This document shows positions 36,029 through 39,097 of a stretch of DNA of 39,097 nt, one piece after another (position 1 is the first letter of the stretch; the number at the start of each line of letters is the position of its first letter). The notes under the pieces were generated by a model. It was given only the letters and a program-made list of their open reading frames with translations, was not told the DNA's origin and ran no database searches. The DNA is from Deinococcales bacterium (GTDB lineage Bacteria; Deinococcota; Deinococci; Deinococcales; JAAFIG01): contig JAAFIG010000042.1 of assembly GCA_013298595.1 (NCBI GenBank), forward strand, positions 1 through 39,097. The letters run 5' to 3'. The translations under genes were made by a program, and so were the position numbers.

Positions 36029-36565
36029 TCAATTTGGTTGAAAGTACACATACGTAGCAATGTAATCAACTTTAGCTTCTTTACCCAGATTGGTAGTGGC
36101 ATTGCAGGCTGTATTGGGTGCTTTGCCACCCTCTGTCTCGAGGCGTTGCACGTAACTGGCGTTGCTCAGTAATCCTTTGCCTTCACGACTTTTGACTGCT
36201 AATAGCAACCACGGTATTGCATCACTATCAGTGCTATTGACTCGAGCTTTGACTTCTCCAATTATTTTAGAACCATCTTGGTACATCCAAAATGGACCCG
36301 CACCGTGCGTGCCAACTTTTGTATCTTCATCATCGAATAAATCTGCTAATGGCGCTTTAAAAGCCCATTCATAACCGCTGTTATCGGCTTTGGCTTGGCA
36401 AATATACAGTTGCACACCACGAGCCAGCAATTGTAAGTAAGCTTGATACCCAGTTGGTGCTGCCAGTTCAGCGGGTGCTTTAACTGGTGTAAAGACAGTT
36501 CGAGGAGCACACGAAACCATACCAGCAGCAAATAACGAAAGACTGACCATACCTAATTTATTCAT
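36029..36565 (-). CDS. DUF3455 lipoprotein
   Basis: A 178-residue protein. Signal with lipobox-like MVSC (Cys19), then the DUF3455 pattern: LLARGVQLYICQAKAD, YEWAFKAPLADLFDDE, GTHGAGPFWMYQDGSKIIGE, IPWLLLAVKSREGKG, then VQRLETEGGKAP. Function unknown; family members are exported. It begins a minus-strand envelope cluster with Rieske, SOD and CHRD proteins, though its spacing (60 bases from Rieske) leaves co-transcription open. Confidence 0.88.
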   Translation of the reverse strand: MNKLGMVSLSLFAAGMVSCAPRTVFTPVKAPAELAAPTGYQAYLQLLARGVQLYICQAKADNSGYEWAFKAPLADLFDDEDTKVGTHGAGPFWMYQDGSKIIGEVKARVNSTDSDAIPWLLLAVKSREGKGLLSNASYVQRLETEGGKAPNTACNATTNLGKEAKVDYIATYVYFQPN

Positions 36566-36625: not shown

Positions 36626-37096
36626 TTATGACAGCGTACCAATGGCAAAAACTTTGTTATTTTGGACAACTAATTTGATACCTTTGAGTGGGCTGTTGGC
36701 AGGACCTGCCAGTACTGCACCATCTTGGATTTGAAATTTTGACCCATGACAACCACAACTCAATTCGCGTTGTGGTTTATTAGCAAAAACTGTGCAGCCT
36801 TCGTGGGTACAAGTGAGGGTATAAGCGGTTAAGTAGCTGTCACCTGTTTTGAGGATTCGTTCAGATTTCAGGGCTTCTTCGCTGGGTTTTGGTATGCGTA
36901 TAAGTAAAGCTTCTTCGTAAGGTAATTTAAAAATCACCTGATCCCATTCCTCTTTGAGCACACTTAGTTCTGCTATTTCGATGGGGTTTGTAAAACGATC
37001 CAATTGATTTTTCGCCTGTACCACAAAACCCAAACTGGCAGCACTGATCAAAATGGAACAACCTAAAGCTTCTCGGCGACTGATGTGCGGTGCCAT
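36626..37096 (-). CDS. Rieske [2Fe-2S] protein, Tat-type signal
   Basis: A 156-residue Rieske protein. Cluster ligands Cys96-Thr-His98 and Cys114-x-x-His117, with Cys101 and Cys116 able to form the disulfide of high-potential Rieske proteins (CTHEGC ... CGCHGS). The N-terminus ISRREALGCSILISAASLGF is twin-arginine-like, so it is probably exported folded and anchored. No cytochrome b or c1 gene is next to it, so it is not a standard bc1 subunit. AAGGGGG precedes ATG 37096, 14 bases after the SOD stop; the two form an operon, suggesting a role in superoxide or redox defence. Confidence 0.9.
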   Translation of the reverse strand: MAPHISRREALGCSILISAASLGFVVQAKNQLDRFTNPIEIAELSVLKEEWDQVIFKLPYEEALLIRIPKPSEEALKSERILKTGDSYLTAYTLTCTHEGCTVFANKPQRELSCGCHGSKFQIQDGAVLAGPANSPLKGIKLVVQNNKVFAIGTLS

Positions 37097-37110: not shown

Positions 37111-37857
37111 TTAGATCAAGGCTTTGGCTTTGAGGTATTCAACCTCGAGTTGAGTCCAATTGAGACTGGCAAGTACTGCTTTTACATAATCAGCTCGACG
37201 GTTTTGAAATTTTAAGTAATATGCGTGTTCCCAGACATCAATACCTAAAACTGGAATTAAACCCTGAGCCAGTGGCGAATCTTGGTTAGCTGTGGAAATC
37301 ACACTGAGTTTGCCCTGAGCATCCAGCACCATCCACGCCCACCCTGAACCAAAGCGTTTATTGGCAGCATCGGTGAGTTTTGTTTGTAGATTCTCGAGTG
37401 AGGCAAATGCTATCTGGATTGCTTCTTTCAGTGTTGCAATTGGTTGTTTAGCACCACCTGGTTGTAGTATGCGCCAGAATAACTGGTGATTGAGTGAGCT
37501 ACCTGCATTATTACGAATTGTTTCACGCACAGTTTCGGGAAGTTGAGCATAATGAGCTGCCAGTTCTGCTAAACCAAGACGGTGCAACTCGGGTTGGTCT
37601 TTAAGAACAGTATTTAGATTGGCTACTGCCGCTGCATGGTGTTTGTTGTGGTGTAAATCAAAGGTTTGCGCGTCGAGAACAGGCTCGAGTGCATCGTTGG
37701 CATATGGCAGACTTGGCAAGGCAAATGGGTAACGTCCGAGTTCGTTTTCAAAATTACTTAAAGGTAAAGTACGAGCCAAAGCACGCACAGGACCAATACC
37801 TGTGTAGGCAGCCAATGTACCAAGTAGCGAGAGCCGAATAACTTGTCGTCGGTTCAT
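37111..37857 (-). CDS. Superoxide dismutase (Fe/Mn), exported
   Basis: A 248-residue Fe/Mn superoxide dismutase with an extra ~40-residue N-terminus, NRRQVIRLSLLGTLAAYTGIG, a Tat-like signal; typical cytosolic enzymes are ~200 residues. The mature part begins YPFALPSLPYANDALEPVLD. Metal ligands are His69 (FDLHHNKHH), His124 (SLNHQLFW), Asp207 and His211 (DVWEHAYYLKF). It turns superoxide into oxygen and peroxide outside the cytoplasm, a location implied by the signal. TAGGAG precedes ATG 37857. It is followed by the Rieske gene. Confidence 0.93.
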   Translation of the reverse strand: MNRRQVIRLSLLGTLAAYTGIGPVRALARTLPLSNFENELGRYPFALPSLPYANDALEPVLDAQTFDLHHNKHHAAAVANLNTVLKDQPELHRLGLAELAAHYAQLPETVRETIRNNAGSSLNHQLFWRILQPGGAKQPIATLKEAIQIAFASLENLQTKLTDAANKRFGSGWAWMVLDAQGKLSVISTANQDSPLAQGLIPVLGIDVWEHAYYLKFQNRRADYVKAVLASLNWTQLEVEYLKAKALI

Positions 37858-37927: not shown

Positions 37928-38389
37928 TTATTGCAGTTTTAACTGACCACGTATTTCGCCAGCTTTGTTAGCAGCGGTATGAATATTGATGTAGAATTTG
38001 CCATCTACCAAATTGCTGACCGTTGCTCCTGAAGTGCTGCCATCAAGGTTACAAGTGGCATCTATTGTGCCTGTTCCAGCAGTGGCACTCGCACCCACAG
38101 CAATTTTGTCTGTGAAGTTACAGAGTACTCCGGCGGTACCGTTTTCATCGGCTAGACCGTGAATATGAGCGAGCGTTGGTATGCCACTCAGGTCGCGGTA
38201 CGTAATTTTTAGGTTTAGAGTTGTTCCTTCTACTGTGGCAGTAGCACTCCCTGTACCATTGGTGGTTATGGCTGTTGGACGTTCGTTAGCTCCATTTAAT
38301 GTGGCACTGTATTTTGGTAAAGCTGGTAGCGTATTACATGCGGCTAATGCCAAGAAACCCAGTACCACTGTGCTTAAAACTTTTAACAT
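37928..38389 (-). CDS. CHRD domain lipoprotein
   Basis: A 153-residue lipoprotein. Signal MLKVLSTVVLGFLALAAC with lipobox LAAC (Cys18), then a CHRD (chordin-like) domain: YSATLNGANERPTAITTNGTGSA, LKITYRDLSGIPTLAHIHG, GKFYINIHTAANKAGEIRGQL, the family ending. CHRD domains in bacteria are extracellular with unknown role; His-rich turns suggest metal binding. AAGGAG precedes ATG 38389. It contains no CTCGAG at all, as part of the longest CTCGAG-free stretch of the window. Confidence 0.92.
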   Translation of the reverse strand: MLKVLSTVVLGFLALAACNTLPALPKYSATLNGANERPTAITTNGTGSATATVEGTTLNLKITYRDLSGIPTLAHIHGLADENGTAGVLCNFTDKIAVGASATAGTGTIDATCNLDGSTSGATVSNLVDGKFYINIHTAANKAGEIRGQLKLQ

Positions 38390-38554: not shown

Positions 38555-38796
38555 CTCAAGAGACGCATACCCCTAGCAATTGGATGCACCATTGCTTGAG
38601 CAAACCAATTTGATTAAGCTATACCGCATATTTTTACATGAAATTCTCATAAAGTTTTACAGTTCAAATTCTTGTTTTGAATAATAAAATTACGTCAGGG
38701 ACAACATGAATTTATATTTCACTAATACAAAACAAACCTCGAGACTATCGTTTTGCATCCATTGCATCCAAACGTAACAACCATGCGTCTCTTGAG
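38555..38796. repeat. Compound inverted repeats framing 242 bases before the sigma factor gene
   Basis: CTCAAGAGACGCAT, 12 bases, TGGATGCA (38555-38588) is repeated in reverse as TGCATCCA, 12 bases, ATGCGTCTCTTGAG (38763-38796). All 22 conserved bases match and the 12-base spacing is the same. The inside is A+T-rich with one CTCGAG and no gene. It could be terminal repeats of a small mobile element or a pair of binding sites. The right copy ends six bases before ATG 38803 and contains part of its ribosome-binding site. Confidence 0.65.
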
Positions 38797-38802
38797 GTGA
38801 GC

Positions 38803-39072
38803 ATGCCGCTTTCAGATGAAGCCTTACAACAACACCTACTAACCCTCGCACAAGGCGACGAACAAGCTTTGCAGGCATTGTATGCAGCCTTGTCAGGAAA
38901 AGTTTACGCCATCGCTTTACGAATGCTCGAAAGCAAAGAAGAGGCACAAGAAGTGGTTCAAGATACCTTTATACGTCGGGTGCTAGTGGATGACTTGCCA
39001 AAATTGTCTCAAAAGCGGAGGATGCAAATCTATGAGAACCCGCACCCTCCTCGGCAAGTATATCATCTCTGA
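38803..39072 (+). CDS. ECF-type sigma-70 factor, region 2 only (truncated or broken)
   Basis: A frame of 89 residues. Residues 1-55 are the start of an extracytoplasmic-function sigma factor: LTLAQGDEQALQALYAALSGKVYAIALRMLESKEEAQEVVQDTF, region 2 that binds core polymerase. In intact proteins this runs on for ~110 more residues including the DNA-binding region 4. Here, after DTFI, the sequence becomes unrelated (RRVLVDDLPKLSQKRR) and stops at 39072. A deletion, or an assembly join close to the contig end, is likely. GAGG precedes ATG 38803; GTG 38797 is an alternative start. It may be a pseudogene. Confidence 0.6.
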   Translation: MPLSDEALQQHLLTLAQGDEQALQALYAALSGKVYAIALRMLESKEEAQEVVQDTFIRRVLVDDLPKLSQKRRMQIYENPHPPRQVYHL

Positions 39073-39097
39073 CATCTTCATCGCTGTTTTCACAGTC
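39032..39097 (+). CDS. Start of a membrane protein, possibly LptF/LptG-like permease (cut by window edge)
   Basis: From ATG 39032 a frame runs to the window end: MRTRTLLGKYIISDIFIAVF... GGAGG lies ten bases upstream. The short basic start followed by a hydrophobic segment recalls LptF/LptG (YjgP/YjgQ) permeases, but 22 residues are too few to be sure. It overlaps the tail of the broken sigma frame in another phase, which again suggests that tail is not real coding sequence. Confidence 0.4.
   Translation, partial: MRTRTLLGKYIISDIFIAVFTV

Follow-up and report, generated by a model that had tools for sequence, protein, structure and literature searches.

According to PMC8103513, systems built on ECF sigma factors are marked by CGT in the -10 element and AAC in the -35 element of their promoters, by an adjacent anti-sigma gene and by positive autoregulation. 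The SigK-RskA pairs of Mycobacterium and Yersinia are placed in ECF18/ECF19, and two conserved cysteines, at positions 133 and 183, are given for SigK in PMC7509140.

The locus considered here lies in a 39,097-nucleotide stretch of DNA from a Deinococcales bacterium (the window, by which the whole stretch analysed is meant), where two inverted copies of a compound repeat frame a 242-bp block between a minus-strand gene cluster and a plus-strand sigma factor gene (Table 1). The two sites are like the autoregulated ECF sigma/anti-sigma promoters covered by PMC8103513 in the CGT of the -10 element, the 16-nt spacing, the adjacency of an anti-sigma gene and the position of the promoter directly before the sigma gene. 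They differ from the general ECF promoters of that same text in that the -35 element of the window is GCATCC and not of the AAC type, and the -10 element ends in C in both window copies (CGTC), whereas it ends in A in most relatives (CGTA). With the SigK-RskA systems described in PMC7509140 the locus has in common the RskA C-terminal domain on the anti-sigma factor; it differs in coming from another phylum, Deinococcota, and in its proposed targets, which are CHRD, superoxide dismutase, Rieske and DUF3455 genes as opposed to MPT70/MPT83. The likeness to SigK-RskA also takes in the targets, several of which are secreted proteins or lipoproteins, and the sigma factor itself, which scores against the SigK model but below the cut-off of that model. 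The -35 element of SigK promoters is of the CCATCC type. A literature search on the SigK -35 motif found nothing relevant. Among the NCBIfam models the sigma protein fits PRK13919 ('putative sigma E') best and the anti-sigma protein PRK13920 ('putative anti-sigmaE'), each scoring under the cut-off; these matches are what the locus shares with the sigma-E/anti-sigma-E pair of Thermus thermophilus. That pair was reportedly the subject of work by Sakamoto et al. in 2008, and both models stem from Thermus.

Table 1. Positions of the genes, proposed promoters and insertion sequence at the right-hand end of the window
Feature	Position	Strand	Details
DUF3455 protein gene	36029..36565	-	PF11937
Rieske iron-sulfur protein gene	36626..37096	-	PF00355
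Mn/Fe superoxide dismutase gene, N-terminal extension	37111..37857	-	PF00081, PF02777
CHRD-domain lipoprotein gene, proposed first gene of left transcript	37928..38389	-	PF07452, E 7e-24
Left copy, proposed ECF promoter toward CHRD/SOD/Rieske/DUF3455 cluster	38555..38588	-	-35 GCATCC 38587-38582, N16, -10 CGTC 38565-38562
Right copy, proposed ECF promoter of sigma gene	38763..38796	+	-35 GCATCC 38764-38769, N16, -10 CGTC 38786-38789
ECF sigma factor gene, first part	38803..38972	+	ATG 38803, alternative GTG 38797; interrupted after ~57 codons
Insertion sequence, left end	38973..39097	.	17-bp terminal repeat ACGTCGGGTGCTAGTGG, 5-bp duplication TTTAT; contig stops within element

The interrupted sigma gene

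The gene behind the 242-base block had been named a sigma factor gene in the preliminary description; that identity stands, but the gene is incomplete: a genuine insertion sequence, within which the contig ends, interrupts it at 38973. The final 125 bases of the window reappear at the ends of contigs C62, C15, C23 and C24. Left and right ends of the element are paired by identical 5-bp duplications on C37/C56 (TTTAT), C23/C14 (ATATT), C24/C27 (AAATT) and C15/C3 (AAGAT), which accounts for four of the five left ends; no partner was found for that on C62 (AATTT). Terminal inverted repeats together with target duplications at several sites identify the element as an insertion sequence, and the matching duplications at four sites dispose of the assembly error that had been feared at the contig end. 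The body of this multi-copy element, including the transposase, was not seen in the assembly, where its ends lie, besides 38973-39097, on C62, C15, C23, C24, C14, C27, C3 and C56. Contigs of the assembly are broken by the insertion sequence at multiple copies.

The rest of the sigma gene is found on another contig, together with an RskA-type anti-sigma gene. When the flanks on C37 and C56 are joined across the insertion, they encode one 182-aa sigma factor and then a 238-aa anti-sigma factor that carries an RskA_C domain. The joined sigma reading matches PF04542 and PF04545/PF08281 above their cut-offs, and it holds region 2 and region 4 as its only sigma domains, as is the case for ECF (group IV) factors. 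The anti-sigma gene is adjacent and co-directional (L024:507-1223), with its start at 507 overlapping the sigma stop at 508-510.

Architecture of the compound repeat

The pattern CTCAAGAGACGCAT-N12-TGGATGCA occurs without mismatch at 38555-38588 (+) and 38763-38796 (-), and the inverted copies with equal spacing and 22 of 22 conserved block bases that had been described earlier are thus exact. Over all 34 positions 25 match; the N12 spacer between the blocks is not conserved, with only 3/12 matching across copies. The first block can be followed for 19 nt, with 89% complementarity. Between the starts of the CHRD and sigma genes, a gap of 413 nt, no exact inverted arm is longer than 14 nt; dinucleotide shuffling produced an arm of that length in 1 of 150 trials, and the second block contributes a further match of 8/8 at the same offset. 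A search for the compound repeat throughout the assembly (4,582,226 bases, 68 contigs), as the preliminary description had suggested, returned just the two window copies, with no third at up to 3 mismatches. The block had rightly been called gene-free: it contains short ORFs and an 85-aa antisense ORF extending into the sigma gene, and no convincing gene. No Rfam family reached the gathering cut-off, and a sigma-70 promoter scan of the block gave two weak matches against 1.5 expected.

Read outward from the block, each copy has the form TGCATCC-N16-CGTC-TCTTGAG, the right copy pointing to the sigma gene, whose ORF in the window encodes sigma region 2, and the left copy to the minus-strand CHRD cluster. 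The CGT in the -10 element, the spacer of ~16 nt and the location of a site before its own sigma gene agree, at the level of sequence, with an ECF promoter. The AAC of the -35 element is absent, GCATCC being present in both copies and GCATCC or ACATCT types in relatives, and because this hallmark is lacking the window sites are not classed as canonical AAC-type promoters. The predicted left leader, of ~165 nt to the CHRD start codon, was counted against the promoter reading. Identity between the copies runs beyond the -10 element into TCTTGAG, which is longer than a promoter requires. The right -10 element is close to the start codon (GTG 38797 or ATG 38803), so that a very short or leaderless transcript would result; leaderless transcripts are described as common in Deinococcus-Thermus in PMC12340547. 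As also proposed earlier, the right copy overlaps the ribosome-binding region of the sigma gene (GAGGTGAG before ATG 38803). At the right copy a tandem pair, TTGCATCCA-TTGCATCCA at 38753-38770, places a second -35-like block 9 nt farther upstream.

Recurrence of the motif in relatives and in the same genome

The sigma search covered 111 genomes of the same order, including that of the window, and gave matches at E up to 1e-15 in 54. The ortholog set consists of the best 29 matches from other genomes that had assigned loci (E up to 4e-36, weaker matches excluded), which represent 14 genera, one of them supplying 11/29. No close ortholog was present in the one other genome of the same genus that was searched (G001) or in the two genomes of the same family. 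The only pattern dictated by the window alone, GCATCC-N15..17-CGT, occurs ≤100 nt upstream of 6/29 orthologs, from 4 of the 14 genera (antisense 0/29; shuffle mean 0.018). Looser patterns, drawn up after the relatives were seen, were found within the same distance and again with antisense 0/29: GCATCC-N15..17-C(G/A)T(A/C) at 9/29 (6 genera; shuffle mean 0.02), CATC-N16..18-CGT(A/C) at 19/29 (shuffle mean 0.128) and ATC(C/T)-N16/17-CGTA at 21/29, missing in 8 (shuffle mean 0.082). Both blocks and their spacing are kept in the relatives amid differing sequence. The conservation of these putative -35 and -10 elements upstream of orthologous sigma genes supports the earlier suggestion of a two-part regulatory site, used twice and carrying the sigma promoter.

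When spaced 4-mer pairs were counted without bias, three registers of the motif came top of the list, with 4 genera each; shuffles also reached 4 in 6/60 and the antisense maximum was 4, which makes this count weak taken alone. Scored with a matrix derived solely from relatives, the window copies rank joint 4th-7th in the window, and the short motif is therefore unspecific without position.

Second sites are seen at several of the related loci. A divergent one like that of the window precedes a Lipoprotein_15 gene in G110; in G104 and G105 the second site lies 3' of the anti-sigma gene, the next gene in G105 being Lipoprotein_15; in G021 and G039 it is downstream of the anti-sigma gene, with a cupin gene in the former and an interrupted reading frame in the latter. 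Genome-wide the signal is weak, GCATCC-N16/17-CGTA giving 16 matches in G104 (control 12) and 11 in G110 (control 3); in G021 there are 3 (control 2), two of them at the sigma/anti-sigma locus.

The genome of the window itself contains more sites; they precede genes for ferritin-like proteins and for paralogous sigma and anti-sigma factors, and a gene for a secreted CHRD-like protein. On C27, GCATCC-N17-CGTA, without a TCTTGAG extension past the -10 element, precedes the gene for a secreted 159-aa protein (P0001), and of the 11 homologs of this protein in other genomes 9 carry ATC(C/T)-N16/17-CGTA in the upstream 150 nt, with none in antisense and a shuffle mean of 0.036. On C1 a divergent site pair separates an RskA_C anti-sigma gene from a paralogous sigma gene, and ACATCC-N17-CGTA stands upstream of the paralogous sigma genes on both C1 and C67. 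Among 12 paralogous or other sigma genes of this and family genomes, (A/G)CATC(C/T)-N16/17-CGTA was found in sense in 5 and in antisense only in 1 more. The exact form TGCATCC-N15..17-CGTC has 6 matches in the genome, and the 4 outside the window are all within ORFs. For GCATCC-N16/17-CGT(A/C) there are 20 matches, compared with 9 for a reversed-pattern control; an ORF script placed 18/20 within some ORF, the two window sites being the only exceptions. The C27 site lies within a short antisense ORF and the C1 site within an ORF only through an upstream GTG, and after inspection 4/20 stand before genes. ACATCC-N16/17-CGTA has 19 matches (control 9), of which 9 are not deep within an ORF; an ORF starts near 8 of these, the genes being three Ferritin_2, DUF4394, lipoprotein-like and ATPase-like proteins (the last two called from the sequence by eye) and the C1 and C67 sigma genes. 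At L295, L301, L307, L297 and L300, ACATCC-N17-CGTA precedes genes for three PF13668 ferritin-like, a DUF4394 and lipoprotein-like proteins, a set that is likely to be a paralogous SigK-type regulon.

Turning to the left-hand cluster, the CHRD genes of relatives have a site within 350 nt of the domain in 2/29 (the set being the matches outside this genome with assigned loci; those lacking a locus were not counted), which leaves the idea of a conserved target unsupported. The second CHRD gene of the same genome (C12) has no motif visible in the upstream stretch inspected. Three tandem CHRD copies are present in G002 (L126, C118:21000-28000), one of them 62% identical to the CHRD protein of the window; no such promoter site was found just upstream of them, and this genome is without a close sigma ortholog. 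G003, a genome of the same family that likewise has no close sigma ortholog, carries GCATCC-N16-CGTATACC before a CHRD-like gene (L277, C13), nearly equal to the C27 site. A literature search on CHRD, superoxide dismutase or Rieske regulons governed by sigma factors found nothing relevant.

A proposed divergent promoter pair and its alternatives

The compound repeat is very probably a divergent promoter pair read by the SigK-like ECF sigma factor of its own locus. The repeat pair is most likely an arrangement, ordinary in kind, of divergent SigK-like ECF promoters whose sigma gene has been interrupted. We infer promoter function, recognition by the local sigma, a single transcript for the four left genes and the nature of the releasing signal. 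In the proposed mechanism the RskA-type anti-sigma would release the sigma factor, presumably in response to extracytoplasmic or oxidative stress, and RNA polymerase would then fire from both sites. Rightward transcription would yield sigma and anti-sigma, and so positive feedback, and leftward transcription would serve the CHRD lipoprotein, superoxide dismutase, Rieske and DUF3455 genes. With the sigma gene interrupted, the sites may be silent now or may be served by paralogous sigma factors.

A variant of the divergent-promoter explanation, and not exclusive of it, is that the promoters are as proposed and are now mainly read by the paralogous SigK-like sigmas of C1 or C67, the local sigma being a dead copy. 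The insertion in the local gene is real and the ACATCC-N17-CGTA of C1/C67 is close to the window motif; however, the window sites represent a different variant (G in the first position, N16, CGTC), the C1/C67 paralogs are only 35-37% identical, and the insertion could occur in just part of the sampled population. This variant is possible, if somewhat unlikely.

It is very improbable that the two blocks are instead an operator pair, bound not by a sigma factor but by a separate dimeric transcription factor that might loop the ~175-nt gap. The reach of the identity past -35/-10 into TCTTGAG and the place of the right copy immediately before the start codon would suit such a factor; yet neither copy is a palindrome, each being asymmetric and having a direction, in that direction the motif is met again upstream of sigma orthologs (antisense 0) and before other secreted-protein genes, and no separate regulator gene was seen adjoining.

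Transposon ends, considered in the preliminary description, are rejected. A gene-free block framed by long inverted repeats does resemble a 242-bp non-autonomous, MITE-like transposon with two-block terminal repeats, but the repeat has no further copy in 4.58 Mb at up to 3 mismatches, no direct repeat was found flanking the block, the block would include the ribosome-binding region of the sigma gene, and in relatives the motif persists with its spacing whereas the block does not, which makes this origin highly implausible. A chance repeat or an assembly artefact is scarcely credible: the site is ~300 nt from the contig end and 1/150 shuffles attained the 14-nt arm, but the second block matches 8/8 at the same spacing, the N12 differs between copies, as it would not if one read had been falsely duplicated, and the multi-copy insertion sequence accounts for the contig end.

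For the divergent promoter pair itself a further, rather unlikely step may be put forward tentatively: that the insertion removed the local SigK-like sigma and spared both promoters, that a paralogous SigK-like sigma now drives the superoxide dismutase cluster (promoter capture), and that TCTTGAG is a second, locus-specific control element. If true, this Deinococcota lineage would offer a natural example of one sigma factor capturing the promoters of a paralog with a near-identical -35/-10 code. At a practical level, what looks like the ends of a transposon may turn out to be a pair of promoters, and the break in the contig next to it is the insertion splitting the sigma gene. For the SigK-like sigma family in Deinococcota, the analysis suggests a concrete -35/-10 code, GCATCC-N16/17-CGTA (here CGTC), and it predicts that the regulon consists of secreted proteins of redox type, with CHRD, superoxide dismutase, Rieske and ferritin-like members.
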